This document shows positions 10,715 through 35,066 of a stretch of DNA of 64,000 nt, in pieces (the first letter of the stretch is position 1; every line of letters begins with the position of its first letter). The position numbers were made by a program, and so were the translations under genes. Below the pieces are notes generated by a model, which saw nothing but the letters and a program-made list of their open reading frames with translations, searched no databases and was not told the DNA's origin. Source of the stretch: Sordariomycetes sp. S80-01Y (lineage: Eukaryota > Ascomycota > Sordariomycetes); the NCBI GenBank assembly GCA_037042185.1, contig JAXQJY010000028.1, positions 930,001 through 994,000 of the forward strand. Reading direction: 5' to 3'.

Positions 10715-13700
10715 ATGTCTGAAGCTTCCTGCCCTATATCCGGCTCAGTGAGTGGGCGATGTCCTGTGGGAACGGCATCGGCCGCCTCACGGCGATCCGG
10801 ACCGCGAGGTTGTTCTTTCTCAGGAGTCTCGCAGCAAGGAGACTTGCGTGCCGCATTCAACGTGAGAGCCACTGCCCCGAGTCAGGTCACGAGGCAAACT
10901 GACAATAGTAGATTCCCACATGTGCCAAAATCGATGATTGGCTTCGCGAGCGGTACGGCAGCCAGTTGTTTGTCTGTAGCTACCAGTATGCTGACCTTCC
11001 CTTTCCAGCGATGGCAAGGCCATCAACGACATTCTGTACGCGGATATCCCACTACCAGAATACACATCCTCTGTGGCCAACGTCGACACCTTGGTGGCAA
11101 ACGACAAGGACCTTCTCGCAGTTGCTCTCGGGGCACCGGCTCGCCAGGTGATGCTGCGTGCAGAGGCCATTGGGGCCCGCACAGGATGGAAGGACGGTTA
11201 CCTGAGCAGAGGATACGGCTTTTGCCCGCCTGACGCAAACGAGGCTGCTGGCGCTCTGGCCAACTCGCCGGGGCGAGTCTGGTCTGACCTATGCGAACGC
11301 ATGCCGGGCTGTGTTGGCAGAGGACGCGTTCGAGAGTCTGTCGCGGCACTACCCCTGGTTCAAGGCACACCAGACGTAATCCCGGACAAGGCTCTCTGGG
11401 CTGCTCTAGTGGCATTGGGCATGCTGTGCTCCATCTACCGGTATGAGGAGAAGAATGACGGGTACGATGGAGTCAGCACTCGCCCAAGCCACACGCGGCC
11501 AAATGTTGAGATGAGTGACGACCTGGGACCCGAGCTCATCAATATTCCCAGGACTATCGGCCTCCCCTACTGGCAGATCTCAAGACGAATGGGACGCGCA
11601 CTTCCTCATCTCACCTTCTTTGACCAAGCATCCTACAACATCAAGGTCCGCGATCCAACATCCACGTACCCGTATGTGGGAAGATTCGACAATACCGACT
11701 TGAGGTGGCCGATGTTCGGGGAGCGAACTGAGATTGCCTTCCTCAAGGGATGCGCAGATACTGCAGGTAGGTGGTGCCGTTCTTTCAACCCTCCGTAAAC
11801 ATTTTCTTGGACCTAACCCCACGCCTGTAGCGTCGTTCCAGGATGGCCCCGATGCCATCGCCGCCTGTCAGGAGCACGTTATGAACCGTGATGTAGAGGG
11901 CTTGCTCCGAGACATGATCCGGCTCAAGGAGATTCTAGAAATGATGCCTAACGCCTTTCACTCGATCTCCACGAACCCCAGTTCCGGAGACAACTACGTG
12001 TCTGCCATTGAGTTCGTCCGCTGGGGCAAGTTCTCTGCTCCCTTGTCGAAGCGGGTTCCTGCGGCGTCAGGTCTCCAGTTCCCTCCCTATCTTCTCATGG
12101 ACGCATTTCTCGGCCGAAAGAGATACGACTCTTTCCTCGGCGCTGAGGGTCTCCATCTCAGAGCTTGGCTGCCTTCCAATCTTCGAGCATTCATTGCGGC
12201 CGTTGAGCATAACTACCGGATTCCTGAATTCGTGAGGGAGTCCAACGATCCGAGGCTGATGGGCGTCCTGGACGGCATCGTTGAGGCCTACACGGGCGAG
12301 CGCGGCTTCATGGGCACCCATCGCTACAAGGTGTTCGGGATCCTTGAGGTGGCTTCCAAGACAGGTCGGACAGAGACCAACGGCAACTCTGGAGGCGGTG
12401 ATGCCACCGGGCGCCCATGGGAAGAGGTTCACCGTCAGTTCTCGGACGCGATGAAGGAACGCCTTGAGCCCTTCAGGGGCAGCATTCACATCGAGCCACA
12501 CCAGATGCGAGGAAGCTTTGAGGAGTGCAGATACAAATCCAGAATCTTGCAGAGATCCTTCATTGACACTGACCCCGACCGATCAATCGCGCTGGTCAGT
12601 CTCGACTTGCAGGACACAGGCATTACCTTCCAGCCGGGGGATCGCCTGGCGGTTATGCCCCTGAATGGCTGGGAGGAGTGCGCAAAAGTTTTTGCTGCCC
12701 TGGGGCTGGACGAAGTCTTCGACAAGCATCCTCGTCTCGACAAGGTCTGGACACGCTTTGCGGAACATTTGGGATCAATCTATAGCCGTGGCTCGTCTTT
12801 TCCCCAGAAGAGCGCCCAAATATCCGTCCTCGATGTGCTCCGGAGAGGCCATCTGGCACCTCTGACAAAATCGCTCGTACTCAAGGTCCATTCCATGCTC
12901 AGAGCCTCCTCAAATACCGTCTTTCGAGTCCTGGCGACCACAGAGTGGCCGGTACGCGGTTCACTCGGCGATCTCCTTCAAGCTGCTGTCGTCGACACTC
13001 CGGTCCAGATCTGGGACCAAGCATTTGACTTATCAGGAGACCTTTCATGGCTTTGTGATCTTATCCCGGTGGAAGTGCCTCGCACGTATTCCATTTCCAA
13101 CTGCTCGGACGAGCTGCTCCCAAGCAGTGTCGACCTAACGGTATCAAGGGCCGAATACAAGCTCTGCGATACTTTCGCTGGAACATCAGACATTACCCGT
13201 TTCGGCGTCAGCAGTGGCTTCCTCAACCCTGCAGTTGGGTCAGCGGACGACGTCTTCTCCCCCGAGCAGGATGTTCTCATCGGAGTGTCACGCCCAATCG
13301 CGTTCCAGCTTCCTATTGATGCTGCTGCCCCATGTGCCTTCTTTGCCGGAGGAAGCGGCATCGCGCCTTTCCGAAGCTTCTGGCAGTCCCGCGCCCTGCA
13401 TCCTGTCGGTAGAAATATCCTTTACCTGGGAGTTCAGAGCCGCGAGAAGTTCTCCTACGAGGAGGAGCTTCGTCACTACGTCCGAGCGGGCATGATGGAG
13501 GTTCATCTGGCCCTGTCCCGCGATAGAAAAGGCCTTGCGTACGACAGCAGTGTCCGTGACCTGGTCGAAAGAGATACTGATCCCAGGTACATCAACTCTC
13601 TCATCGTTGAGCAGGGCGCGACTGTCTGCGATCTGGTCATGTCCAAGAAGCAGGGTGGGCTGGGCGGGTACCTGTATATCTGCGGCTCCGTCGCTGTGTT

Positions 13701-15618
13701 CGACTCCGTCATGAGCGGCATTCGGAAGGCCATCTATAACCATGGCACGGCTACCATGGATTCAACGGACCTCATTATCAATACTGCGTTTGCAGAGCGT
13801 CGGATCATGTTGGACGTCTTTATGACCCCCAAACCGCTGCCATGCAATCAGGCCACTATCCCGCTCTCACAACTTGCAAAGAACACCGGTCACCGACCCG
13901 GAACCAGAACATGGATTGCTGTCCATGGAAGTGCTTACGACGTCACCGATTTCGCCCCGATGCACCCCGGAGGAACGCTCATTCTCAAGTCCAACGCTGG
14001 CGTTGACTGCACCAAGTCCTTCGACAACCTCGCTCACTCAAACAACCCAGAAGTTGCCAGTCTTCTTACCAAATACTTCGTGGGCCATCTGACGCCCAAG
14101 TCAGAATTCCATGGCTCGGAAGATCTCAGTACTCTCTATGACCTGTGGTCAGACTACCTCAGAACGACCGTTGAGACTCTGGTGGCTCAGCAATTCGAGA
14201 TGGAGGATCTCGTTCACTCGCAGAAGCTTTGGTTCCAAGAGGGACTCTTCAATATGTTGGGAGTACGGATATTCTACCAGTACCAGTCTCGACTCCTGCA
14301 AGGCGGCTTCTCAGCACTTTTCGGGCCCAAATTCCAAGAGCTCGTCTTGAAGCTGTCGTTCATGGCCGCCAACTCGGCTTCCGTGGACGGGATTCACAGC
14401 AAGTTCCCAGACATCCTCGGCGCCGTCTCTCGTGCCACTTCCTCTCCTCATGCCATGGCGACGATGAAGGAGGTTTCCGTGATCGGCGAGTTCATTTGCA
14501 ACAGTGAGCCCGCCCGCCTTCAACAACATGGTATCATGGACTACGCAAGCAAGTCTGTGAGCCTCGACATGGAGCTCCTCGAGGACATGCGTGCCGAAGC
14601 GTGTCAAGGAATGGATGCTTTCGACGCCATCATGGAGTTGGAAGCCAGCTCCCAGGCCCAACGTGTAGTCTCAATGTGCTCTTTCCTGATGCAACTCCTC
14701 GAGCGCATGGCCAGACGCCTCGATATCTTCTACTCCAAGCTTGCGAGCCACTCCATCTATCAGCCTGCACTGGAACAGAACCCGGCGCGTACAAGATGGC
14801 ATCAAGTGCGGCAGCGCATCAGGGACGGGTCGTTCTTCGTGCTCACCAGAGCCGCTGTGCTCCAGGTTTCACCAAACCCCACGGTGAAGAAAGACGGTGT
14901 AGACTTCGACAGCGTGCTTTCGCGTGTGCAAGACACGCTCTCTACACCGTCTCAGACAGTCGGCAATTCCGTACCCATGCATCTCAATGAGCGTCGCACA
15001 GCGAGGGCCAATGTCCCCTACGATGCCCCTCCTGCTTTTGAGCGCTTCGAGAACGAGAGCGCAGCACGCCGCATGTCCACTTTCATATCTCAGAACATGC
15101 GGGCCATGCGCAGGCTCAGCCAACTTCCAGATCTAGCTCAAGGCTTGACTATCGAAGACATCATGAAAGCCGGCAAGGGCCAGGGCCTGCCGCACCGCGG
15201 CTTACCAACACCCCCGTCAAGCAGGGGCTCCAGTAGGTCACCCGAGCGGGAGTTGGCGCACCGCCGTGGGAGAGCAACGTCTCTCGCAGAACATATGAGA
15301 TCATCGACTAGTCTGAACCGGCGGAGGTCTTCCCGGTCGAATGCTTCACCGAGGCTGGACCATGCCCACCCGGCTCCGAGCCCCAGCTCTAACCCGAACC
15401 AAGGAGTGGCTACTATGAAGCTGAACAGGAGGAACATGAGCGACAGCTCCATCCGGTCCCCTACACCAGTCCCTATTTTGGAGCCCAGGCATCGAATGGC
15501 AGCCCGAGCAACTAGTTTTAACATCAGAATGGGGGAAACAATGGCAGAGCCTGCCTCCAATGGGTACTTGAGGTCGCTCCGGCTGGCTGAGCTCATCGAT
15601 AGCAAGACTTCCGGATAA
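10715..15618 (+). CDS. IDO-like heme dioxygenase fused to P450-reductase-like FAD/NAD(P)H module, cytochrome b5 and helical tail
   Basis: Four exons (10715-10861, 10912-10952, 11009-11766, 11831-15618) join in frame to 1577 residues. Residues about 60-540 resemble the indoleamine 2,3-dioxygenase fold family (IPRTIGLPYWQISRRMG, NTDLRWPMFGERTE). The likely proximal heme His is at about 479 in GTHRYKV. Residues about 550-960 look like the FAD and NAD(P)H domains of P450 or sulfite reductase, without an FMN domain: PGDRLAVMPLNGW, the FAD motif RTYS at about 733, FFAGGSGIAPFR at about 819 and YICGS at about 931. Residues about 993-1073 are cytochrome b5, with HPGG at about 1027 and a second heme His at about 1051. 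A 500-residue tail follows: helical at first, then Ser/Arg rich. I infer electron flow NAD(P)H to FAD to b5 to the oxygenase heme. The substrate is unknown. It stands alone, with no biosynthetic neighbours. Confidence 0.85.
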
Positions 15619-25133: not shown

Positions 25134-26116
25134 TTAGTTGGCCTTCTTTGCCATGGTGGCCTTGCGCTGGGCAATCTTCTTCTCCATGCGCCTCCTGCGG
25201 GCGTCAGGGCCGGCCTCGGTGTCGAGCATGTAGTCCCACCAGCGGAAGCTGGAGGCGTAGTTGCCAATGAACTGCTCGTGGTGCTCGTCGTGGTGGTCGG
25301 CGCCAGCCCAGACGGGGAGGAAGTGACGCAAGCTCCAGGGGAAGTCGTAGCCGCTGTGGGCATCGATGGCCTGGAAGAGGCGAAGAATGATCCAGACGTA
25401 CATGGTGAGCATGTGCAGGTCCTTGGTGACGGAGAGGAGGAGGATTGGCGAGCCGACGACGCCGAGGCCGAGAAGCATGGTTTCGATCGGGGAGGCGTAT
25501 TCAGCGGCGAGACCGAAGGGGGCGGAGTAGGTGTGGTGCATCTTGTGAATGCGCTTGTAGAGGGGACCGTAGTGCAGGCAGCGGTGGAACCAGTAGTGCC
25601 AGGTATCCTCCATGACGAACATGATGCTGATCTGGATGGCCATCTTCATAAGCGAGGGGAAAGGCACGCCGTATTCGATGCCGACGTAGGTGGCGATGGG
25701 GTGGAAGAACCAGATCTGGGGCAGCTCGGCGGTAAAGTGGCTGATGAGGACAATGGCGGCGCAATCCCACTGCTCCTTGAGAGTGGGCATCTTCTCGCGT
25801 TGAATCTTGTACTGGTGGAAGTAGGGGATCTTGTCCATGATCATGAAGGGAATGCAGCGGCCGAAGTACACGGCCTCGTGCATGACGAAGCTCATGATAC
25901 CGGTCGCGAGGGTGTCGTTCTGCCACCACAGGTACCAGGCGGCCCAGAGCTTCTCGGCGTAGTTGAGGTGTACATTGTACTTGGCGACCTCGGCGAAGAC
26001 ATCAGAGTAAGCCTGAGTCTGGTTCAGGGCGGTCGCGGTGGCGTTGCTGCAGGAGAACGTTAGCAAGGTGATCTTGGGATTCCGATAAGGGGGTTTGGCA
26101 CTGACACGACCTCCAT
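25134..26116 (-). CDS. ERG25: C-4 methylsterol monooxygenase (ergosterol pathway)
   Basis: Two exons (26106-26116 and 25134-26046) give 307 residues starting MEVVNATATALNQTQ. The 11-base first exon uses a GTCAGT donor, and the intron has a GCTAAC branch site and CTGCAG acceptor. This is the only join I found that keeps the frame and starts from the CCACC-ATG. Membrane-bound di-iron hydroxylase His boxes are all present: HYWFHRCLH, KRIHKMHHTY and GADHHDEHHEQF. Hydrophobic helices lie around TGIMSFVMHEAVYFG and ETMLLGLGVVGSPILL. The enzyme oxidises the C-4 methyl groups of sterol precursors in the ER, using cytochrome b5 and NADH. The C-terminus is basic (RRRRMEKK...KATMAKKAN), as in ER proteins. 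Confidence 0.95.
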
Positions 26117-27249
26117 GGTGGCGGCAACGCAGGGAGCGAGGTGTTAGGGACTTCGGCGTATGCGAAATCTTCTTGTCACCAGTGTCGTCCCCGGTAAAGT
26201 TCGGGTACAGGTTCAAGTTCGAAGGACGATGGGTTGCGTGAAGAGTATGAGATTTGTTGAGGGGACGCGGACGGGAAGCCAAGGGTTTATCAATTTCAAG
26301 ATCAGGAGATCTCAGGAGGGCGGGAAAAAAAGTAGGGTGGATTCCGTGGGGACCGGGCAGCAGCCAATGGTCTGATGTTGAGGAGTGGCATGCCGAAGTC
26401 TAGCGTGCATGGAAATTGTGCAGAGAAATGAGGCCATGCCAAACTCCTCCTTTCCGTGGTCCGGATTGCGGTTCTGCCGGGCGCGGTGCCTGGCATTGTG
26501 CCGATCAGATCATCAGGCCATCTCATATTCGCGCCTTTCTATTGGTGCTTTTGGCCATATGTGGGGTTGTGCAACCTTTATGCTTGCGCATAAGAACACG
26601 AATACGACCTGCCTCAGCCACGCTCCAACGGTTGCTCCGTCCACCGAGTTGACTGCATCACGCCACCGATCTACGCGTAAATGGTTCTCCAATGTGGCTG
26701 AACAGTCATGATCTGTCGAGTGGAAAACAAGTCACGTGGTTGTACCAAAGATCAGTGCTGAGGTAGCTTTAAGCAAGGGACGAAGTAGGTGAGCTGCATC
26801 AAGGTCAGCTTCAGCGCTCAGAATAGCTGCCATCTTGTGAAAAGAAGACCGACACGCCGTCATTCTTTGTCTAGCCGAAGGGAGATAAAACATCAAGCAG
26901 GATGCAGCCCAACCGCCAAAGTACCGAGTCTCGGTTATTCTGTCAGCCATTCTGAGCCACCGAGCTCCACCGGCTCGGGAAGGAACGTCATTGTTTGCTA
27001 TTGTTGACTTTTCCCAACCTTACATCGAGCTCATCCTGCGCCCCTTCCATCCCCGCAAGTTTGATATTTGAGAAGTGAGCTCAGCAGGCGCAGACTGTGT
27101 CGATGCCGGAACATTAGGATCCGATCCCAGCCGAGTCGAATCACATCTTCGGCCCCTGCCTGGTCACAGCTGGTCGTCTGGTCATGCTGTCCGTCCGCAT
27201 GGTCTGATATTGGAGCCTGCATATCCCGTTCTTGGGCGACTTAATCACC
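26117..27249. other. Intergenic, divergent promoters
   Basis: This holds the promoters of ERG25 (-) and NCA2 (+). A run rich in G and A lies near 26310-26340. No gene was recognised. Confidence 0.45.
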
Positions 27250-32669: not shown

Positions 32670-35066
32670 ATGTCTTCAATCGCAAGACAGCCTGGGTCGC
32701 CTCTGGTGTCTAGGCTTGAAGGTATTTCAACCAAAGCACTGCTTCAGCAGTATTGACAGCACTAACTGTCGAGAAAAGACTTATTGGAAGTGTGGCACGA
32801 GCACCGAGGACCCCTTGTCATCGCGCTCCTCGTTGTCCTTTTCGCCATTCGCATCTACCTACACCTGAACGAATCTAAGGGCGAACTCCAAGCGATCCCG
32901 AATGCATATGACAAGTCGAAATTGATACCGCAAACCGACGTCAAGGCCAAGGTCGACGAGCAAAAGAGCCAGAAACCCACTGGCCCCAGGAGGATCAAGG
33001 GCGGGCTACTCAAGAAGCCTTCGAACGAGCGCGTTGAAGCGACAACATTGGATACCCCGATCAAGACTCTCATCTTCTTCTCCTCCGTCACGACCAAGAC
33101 GCACAAGATCGCCGAAGAGTATGCGCAGACACTGTCCAGCTCACTCGACACTTTATCGAGGGAGACTGGCCGCACATTCTTCAAGCCGGAGACACGCGAC
33201 CTGACCGATATTGAGCTCGACGACTACTTCGTAACCCCGCCGAAGGACGAGGACGGCGCAGATTTCTTTTATCTGTTCCTAATTCCCAGCTACAACATCG
33301 ACAGCATCAATGATACTTTCATTCAGGTGCTTGAAGAAACACATCATGACTTCCGAATTGACACAGCTTCATTATCTGGGCTGCTTGGATATTCAGTCTT
33401 TGGCTTTGGCGACAAGGAAGGGTGGCCGACAGAGCGTGAAGGTTTCTGCTTCCAGGCAAAGGAAATCGATAAATGGATGGCAAAATTGACTGGGAAAAAG
33501 CGAGCTTGGCCTGTTGGCATGGGAGACATGGGCAGCGATCACAAGGAGCGACTCAGCGAGTGGGCGACAGGTGTCGTGGAGATCATGGGTCATGTTGCTC
33601 GTACTGGCAACCTAGGAGAGGGTGCTCCTGGAAGCGGCGACGCAGTTGAAAGTGACGTCGAAGAGGCGGAAGATGAGGATGACGGCGAGGTGCTTTTCGC
33701 AGAAGAGGAGCAAGGACGAGCCCTGGACGATGTGGAAGACCTTGGGAAGATGGTGAAAACGTCAGCAAACGGCGCAAAGCCGAAGGCCAAGGCGTCACTA
33801 GCTGTCGATTTCACAACACAGGGCAAGGCGCCCAGCCAGAAGAGACAGGCCGCACCTCCAGTGATCAAGGAGATGGTAGCCAAGAACTCACCAACCTACG
33901 CCGCCCTCACAAAGCAAGGATACACCATAGTGGGATCGCACTCGGGCGTCAAGATCTGTCGCTGGACAAAGTCAGCTCTGCGCGGGCGCGGAAGTTGCTA
34001 CAAGTACTCGCTTTACGGTATCCACTCCCATCAGTGTATGGAGACAACGCCGTCGCTTTCCTGCTCTAACAAGTGCGTCTTCTGCTGGAGACACGGCACA
34101 AACCCCGTTGGCACGACATGGCGCTGGGTTGTCGACCCGCCGGATATGATATTTGACGGTGTTAAGAAGGGCCATTATTCCAAGATCAAGATGTTGCGTG
34201 GCATGCCTGGCGTTCGGGCTGAGCGTTTCGCCGAAGCTATGCGCATCAGACATTGCGCTTTGTCGTTGGTTGGCGAGCCCATATTCTACCCTTACATCAA
34301 CGAATTCCTCGAGATGCTGCACAATGAGCACATCTCGTCCTTCTTGGTGTGTAATGCACAGCATCCTGAGCAATTGGATGCTTTGAAAGCAGTCACGCAA
34401 CTGTACGTCTCGATCGACGCGTCGAACAAGGACTCGCTGCGCAAGATCGACAGGCCCCTGCATCGCGACTTCTGGGAGCGATTCATGAGATGTCTGGACA
34501 TCTTGAGAGAAAAGCGGTTCAAGCACCGCACGGTCTACCGCTTGACCCTTGTCAAGGGATTCAACGTGGAGGACGAAGCCAATGGGTACGCGGATCTTGT
34601 CGAACGTGGACTGCCCTGCTTTATCGAGGTCAAGGGCGTCACATATTGTGGCACATCAACCTCGTCAAACGCAGGCATCGCGATGAGCTCAGTGCCGTGG
34701 TACTGGGAAGTTTGTGACTTTGCGCGAGCTTTGGAGAAGAGACTCAGAGAGAAAGGTCTGAAGTACTCCATTGCCGTCGAGCACGCCCACAGCTGCTGCA
34801 TTCTGTTAGCGAGTGAGCGTTTCCTGAAGGATGGGAAGTGGCATACGCACATCGACTACGACAGGTTCTTTGAGCTGCTGGAGGAGAAGGGCCCAGATGG
34901 AGACTGGACGCCCGAAGACTACATGGGTGCGCCGACCCCCGAGTGGGCGCTTTGGGGCAACGGCGGTTTCGATCCTAGGGATACACGGGTTGATAGGAAG
35001 GGAAGGCCGATCTATCGCGAAGTTATCCGGGAAAGGCCACCAGAGGCTGTCGAAGCTGAGTGGTAG
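32670..35066 (+). CDS. TYW1: tRNA wybutosine-synthesising protein 1, radical SAM with flavodoxin domain
   Basis: Two exons (32670-32721 and 32779-35066) give 779 residues starting MSSIARQPGSPLVSRLE. A membrane anchor follows (PLVIALLVVLFAIRIYLHL, about 33-51), so the enzyme is tethered, probably to the ER. A flavodoxin-like FMN domain runs from about 110 to 270 (LIFFSSVTTKTHKIAEEYA). An acidic linker covers about 280-330. The radical SAM domain begins near 370, with the cluster motif CSNKCVFC (Cys 446, 450, 453). The C-terminal wyosine-base domain contains FIEVKGVTYCG. TYW1 builds the tricyclic 4-demethylwyosine core on G37 of tRNA-Phe from N1-methylguanosine and pyruvate. The first exon supplies the only ATG, because the frame of exon 2 is closed upstream. 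Confidence 0.95.

Follow-up and report, generated by a model that had tools for sequence, protein, structure and literature searches.

A predicted fungal fusion of an IDO-fold heme domain, an FAD/NADPH reductase module and cytochrome b5

One gene and its redox modules

We analyzed a gene on the forward strand of a 64,000-nucleotide stretch of the Sordariomycetes sp. S80-01Y genome (hereafter the window; contig JAXQJY010000028.1, positions 930,001 to 994,000), which is predicted to encode in one chain a heme domain with the indoleamine 2,3-dioxygenase (IDO) fold, a reductase and a cytochrome b5. The gene (10715-15618, + strand, as are all of its features below) has four exons that splice into an open frame of 1577 amino acids with a single terminal stop. 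Exon 1 (10715..10861) encodes residues 1-49, exon 2 spans 10912..10952, exon 3 spans 11009-11766 and exon 4 spans 11831-15618. The introns, each bounded by GT..AG, measure 50 nt (10862..10911), 56 nt (10953..11008) and 64 nt (11767..11830). The first is consistent with the N-terminus of homolog P0001 from Sarocladium implicatum (1584 aa), to which the predicted protein is 79% identical over 100% of the query with a fitting N-terminus, and the third interrupts the heme domain. Because exon 4 by itself codes for the last part of the heme domain, including the candidate ligand His479, and for the reductase and cytochrome b5, and because intron 3 is internal to the heme domain, the fusion is independent of the splice at 11767-11830. 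The initial annotation had described a single 1577-residue chain ordered as heme domain, reductase and b5; the spliced frame is unbroken, and its coordinates and length proved right.

A first homolog search scored 7,991 candidates and retained 355 proteins at E <= 0.001; all conservation counts given here use 120 listed homologs. Scanned against Pfam, exons 3 and 4 matched FAD_binding_1, NAD_binding_1 and Cyt-b5 besides IDO. The same scans gave no match to a flavodoxin (FMN) domain, as had been predicted, and none to a nitric-oxide synthase (NOS) oxygenase or a cytochrome P450 domain. We rejected membership of the NOS or P450 families, since exons 3 and 4 gave neither domain and the heme domain is IDO-folded. 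All four Pfam domains occur in 117 of the 120 homologs (counted by reading the table). The exceptions are P0020, which lacks b5, P0041, which has no IDO match, and P0064, which lacks NAD_binding_1.

The core of the heme domain (11133..12483, residues 105-533) is split by intron 3. Its exon 3 part matched Pfam IDO (PF01231) at 28.8 bits, against a curated cut-off of 26, and the PrnB-type family was rejected as its identity because the exon 3 scan returned IDO alone. The identity to IDO is ~20%, and the IDO fold was found using the structure model of a 73%-identical homolog (P0121, mean pLDDT 74.9), in line with the IDO-like domain that had been proposed. The homologs share 138 invariant columns within residues 61-540. 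A proximal histidine had been expected near residue 479, and we place the candidate at His479 (12319..12321), which by motif and helix order would be the counterpart of IDO1 His346. It is kept in all 120 homologs, and in the P0121 model it lies on the helix that precedes the domain's final loop and final helix.

The reductase (12505..13821, residues 541-979) is an FAD/NADPH module with a connecting domain, as in diflavin reductases. The RTYS (13081-13092, residue 733) and GGSGIAPFR (13348-13374, residue 822) motifs and the b5 motif HPGG (residue 1027), which had been described as intact, are all present and near-invariant among the homologs. The module contains a Ser-Cys-Asp triad, which we take to be catalytic, and a Ser-Arg pair that presumably holds the 2'-phosphate; its C-terminal part includes C933 (13681-13683), D977 (13813-13815) and F979 (13819-13821). 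It matches the FAD/NADP domain of nNOS. The NCBIfam matches of the protein, to sulfite reductases and the phasin match given below, all fall far under their cut-offs, and a few weaker ones accompany them. The analogy with vertebrate cytochrome b5 reductase that had been drawn did not hold, as the module is of the CPR, sulfite reductase and NOS type. Cytochrome b5 follows (13870..14091, residues 996-1069; Pfam Cyt-b5 E 4.4e-15), with axial His1027 (13963-13965; His in 119 homologs, gap in 1) and His1051 (14035-14037; His in 120 of 120). Computation thus yielded one frame, three folds, and conserved candidate ligands and catalytic residues.

Heme pocket, homologs and IDO loci of the same genome

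Alignment with IDO combined with the homolog counts pairs F307 with Phe163 of IDO (Phe in 119, gap in 1), F266 with Tyr126 (Phe in 119, gap in 1) and C311 with Ser167 (Cys in 98, Val in 21, gap in 1). A conserved region in the JK loop, KTGRTETNGNSG (12358..12393), follows the pattern K.GR.ETNG.SG in 117 of the 120 homologs and lacks GTGG, the JK-loop motif of the IDO and TDO tryptophan dioxygenases according to PMC5700043. GTGG was found in none of the 120 homologs within residues 479-530, nor in the window protein. Likewise, F[F/Y]xxxR, which carries Phe226 and Arg231 in IDO1, was found in none of the 120 within residues 350-400. Arg231 aligns with the variable E376, adjoining a gap. Close by, R379 is Arg in 115 of 118 residues and, judged from the alignment, could stand in for Arg231. 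In the segment aligned near the Arg231 region, residue 377 (12013-12015) is Phe here and Trp in all 120 homologs.

The genome itself (30.87 Mb, 16 contigs) offered a control. It holds one full-length copy of the fusion, with 12 further short and weak matches, and five separate IDO loci (L001-L006 and L008; on C9, C2, C10, C11 and C16). Four of these five loci combine F[F/Y]xxxR with GTGG (three loci) or GTAG (one). The fifth, on C16, diverges strongly (82.8 bits, on a long branch) and shows neither F[F/Y]xxxR nor GTGG in the piece examined. In profile-profile alignment the GTGG of the IDO locus was left unpaired with the KTGR of KTGRxETNGxSG. We built a midpoint-rooted tree from 16 rows of the fusion family and the five IDO loci, in which the two groups are separated with 100/100 support. 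The separating branch measures 3.1 changes per column on the family side and 0.5 on the side of the IDO loci, whose inner order is unsure because two IDO rows are long. The initial annotation had called the protein a dioxygenase; given the motifs kept by most IDO loci of the same genome and the very long branch to the fusion family, that name is unsupported as it was stated. Within the tree, the divergent family members P0131, P0134 and P0136 carry SGLALP in place of the SGLQFP of the main family, and P0183 and the Serendipita protein P0256 lie near their branch.

The homolog names point to Sordariomycetes, Leotiomycetes and Dothideomycetes, as we assign these names to classes; one homolog, P0028, is from Podospora. 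A partial protein from the basidiomycete Serendipita, 45% identical, covers the IDO, FAD and NAD parts, and its record stops before b5. Among the best 120 of 169 matches in a third homolog search, all were at least 45% identical to the first sequence of the query and look like family members or pieces of them; judging by their sequences, the short IDO-only matches at this level (at least 45% identity) look like partial genes, though they may include a stand-alone relative. When bacterial and archaeal genomes were scanned by pattern, 39 matches emerged, without a confirmed relative among them. The homologs carry public database names such as 'sulfite reductase flavoprotein alpha-component', 'NADPH--hemoprotein reductase', 'putative indoleamine 2,3-dioxygenase' and 'hypothetical protein'.

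Terminal segments and neighboring genes

The segment encoded by exon 1 contains CPxSGS, CPxG and GPRGCxF (PRGCSF here), with two Cys-Pro dipeptides. Of the 120 homologs, 82 keep Cys at position 6 and 84 at position 16, and nearly all the rest have gaps there. Among 119 full-length homologs, the first 90 amino acids contain two CP dipeptides in 79, one in 22 and none in 18; many of these 18 appear by eye to be shortened gene models. The segment also occurs in the divergent fragments P0170, P0188 and P0200. It resembles heme-regulatory motifs, in which heme is bound through the Cys of a Cys-Pro sequence (PMC8808069), and a heme-regulatory or thiol switch is possible.

Downstream of b5 lies a C-terminal helical domain (14116..14874, residues ~1078-1330) with long helices in the model and 30 invariant columns within residues 1081-1330. 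Nine members searched against Pfam gave nothing better than E 0.04, a profile of the domain against PDB sequences gave nothing better than E 0.8, and an NCBIfam phasin match (E 0.0075) scored 16.7 bits where the cut-off is 99.7. The Ser/Pro/Arg-rich tail and stop (14875..15618) are variable, with a mean majority fraction of 0.51 compared with 0.83 in the heme domain.

Eight longer open reading frames (ORFs) of the window were scanned. They matched actin-like, fatty-acid hydroxylase, amidohydrolase, NCA2, TYW1-like (wyosine/radical-SAM with flavodoxin), Exo84, Cef1-like (Myb type) and DcpS families. These eight ORFs show no sign of a biosynthetic cluster, and from their families we judged a secondary-metabolism cluster unlikely; the substrate may therefore be a common metabolite. 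The TYW1-like protein (32766-35063) carries a flavodoxin domain of its own. The ORF of the fatty-acid hydroxylase superfamily (25134-26396), ~9.5 kb downstream of the fusion gene, is presumably sterol methyl oxidase-like. Sterol methyl oxidase-like and fatty-acid hydroxylase enzymes can use cytochrome b5.

Proposed electron path and competing explanations

We consider it fairly probable that the protein is a self-sufficient, NADPH-driven, His-ligated heme oxygenase, for which we infer heme and FAD binding, an electron path, O2 chemistry and a substrate class. NADPH would pass a hydride to FAD in the CPR/sulfite-reductase-type module, which has no FMN domain. In place of FMN, b5 would shuttle single electrons from FAD to the IDO-fold heme, and this heme would activate O2 and oxidise a small, probably aromatic substrate. 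The proposed path is plausible because IDO1 catalysis in vitro is sustained by CPR, whether or not b5 is present (PMC13142367).

Tryptophan dioxygenation is redox neutral, and re-reduction of the heme is needed only occasionally. Retention of the reductase in nearly all homologs suggests instead that electrons are spent in every turnover. Given the attached reductase and the absence of the tryptophan-recognition motifs, we regard monooxygenation of a substrate other than L-Trp, with stoichiometric use of electrons, as more likely than classical dioxygenation, with moderate confidence and by analogy. Two precedents, together with the retention of the reductase, lead us to prefer a self-sufficient monooxygenase. 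MarE, of the same superfamily, is a monooxygenase that was assayed with ascorbate and has SLGGR where human TDO has GTGGS (PMC11904535), and even human IDO has been reported to act as a monooxygenase (PMC12921851).

Several points weigh against this interpretation. Monooxygenation is argued purely from analogy, and the five separate IDO loci of the genome indicate that IDO-type domains need no fusion. In the homolog model, pLDDT is <50 at 451-458 and over most of 496-548, which leaves the JK loop and the link between heme domain and reductase poorly modelled. Finally, the profile-profile alignments with the IDO loci of the genome, at probabilities of 90 and 94%, have an unreliable active-site register.

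The alternative that survives best is a true tryptophan or indoleamine dioxygenase, in which the reductase and b5 merely re-reduce an occasionally oxidised heme. The IDO fold, His479 and the conserved F307 would suit such an enzyme, and b5 and CPR are reported as IDO1 reductants in PMC13142367. We nevertheless find it unlikely, because GTGG and F[F/Y]xxxR are absent from the matching regions of the homologs, the Ser167 counterpart is Cys or Val in all 119 residues, and five separate IDO loci, a long branch away from the fusion family, are already present in the genome, although the C16 locus likewise lacks both motifs in the piece examined.

More doubtful still is a redox, heme or gas sensor, whose IDO-like domain would bind O2, CO or NO without turnover while the C-terminal domain relays the signal. 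Its Cys-Pro motifs would fit, given their resemblance to the heme-regulatory motifs of PMC8808069, as would the conserved orphan helical domain, but the conserved NADPH/FAD catalytic residues and the 138 invariant columns suit an enzyme better.

Slightly less probable again is a nitrogen-oxide enzyme, whether NOS-like, an NO dioxygenase or a nitrite reductase. A heme domain is joined to a NOS/CPR-type reductase that matches the nNOS FAD/NADP domain, and homolog P0014 bears the name 'related to nitric-oxide synthase, salivary gland'. Arginine-dependent NO formation has been reported in fungi, where close mammalian-NOS-like sequences are rare, according to PMC10889981. However, the likeness to NOS is confined to the reductase, with no NOS oxygenase domain in exons 3 and 4, and in Neurospora crassa knockouts of four NOS-like candidates had normal NO (PMC4948021), although none of the four could be matched to the fusion gene. 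We rejected two separate genes or an annotation artefact as next to impossible: although the four-exon model is a prediction, a single open 3,788-bp exon spans His479, the reductase and b5, and the four domains occur together in 117 of the 120 homologs.

The self-sufficient oxygenase that we favor resembles several known systems in part. It differs from the IDO family (PF01231), to which it is ~20% identical, in lacking GTGG and F[F/Y]xxxR, in having Cys or Val at the Ser167 site, in being joined to a reductase and b5, and in forming a clade apart from the IDO loci of its own genome. With the heme-dependent aromatic oxygenases (the HDAO superfamily), MarE among them, it would share the His-ligated heme of the TDO/IDO superfamily, an altered substrate loop and, as proposed here, electron-consuming chemistry. 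Unlike MarE, a TDO-like enzyme for which ascorbate was used in the assay (PMC11904535), it has a built-in NADPH reductase and b5. The FAD/NADPH half, with its Ser-Cys-Asp triad and Ser-Arg site, is that of the diflavin reductases (CPR, sulfite reductase flavoprotein, NOS reductase), whereas the FMN/flavodoxin domain is absent and b5 is placed after the reductase. The CYP102/CYP505 P450-CPR fusions and NOS similarly unite a heme oxygenase and an NADPH reductase in one chain. P450 and NOS hemes are Cys-ligated, while here the heme is IDO-fold and probably His-ligated, and b5 stands in for FMN.

Each of the named domains is known; their combination appears to be new. We found no study of this fusion in the open-licence library searched, subscription journals being mostly outside the search. 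The protein is widespread and apparently unstudied, and its substrate may well differ from tryptophan. More tentatively, and with somewhat less than even confidence, the family could form a widespread Dikarya-level class of His-ligated IDO-fold monooxygenases, powered by NADPH, FAD and b5, acting on a non-Trp substrate and equipped with a Cys-Pro heme or redox switch at the N-terminus and an unassigned C-terminal domain. With NADPH permanently supplied to an IDO-fold heme, the reductant and the electron count of this enzyme class could be tested directly within a single polypeptide. A conserved fungal oxygenase would also join a set of genes that are now misleadingly named, for instance as 'sulfite reductase flavoprotein alpha-component', and if true, a self-sufficient oxygenase with a His-ligated heme would offer a new scaffold alongside P450 BM3.
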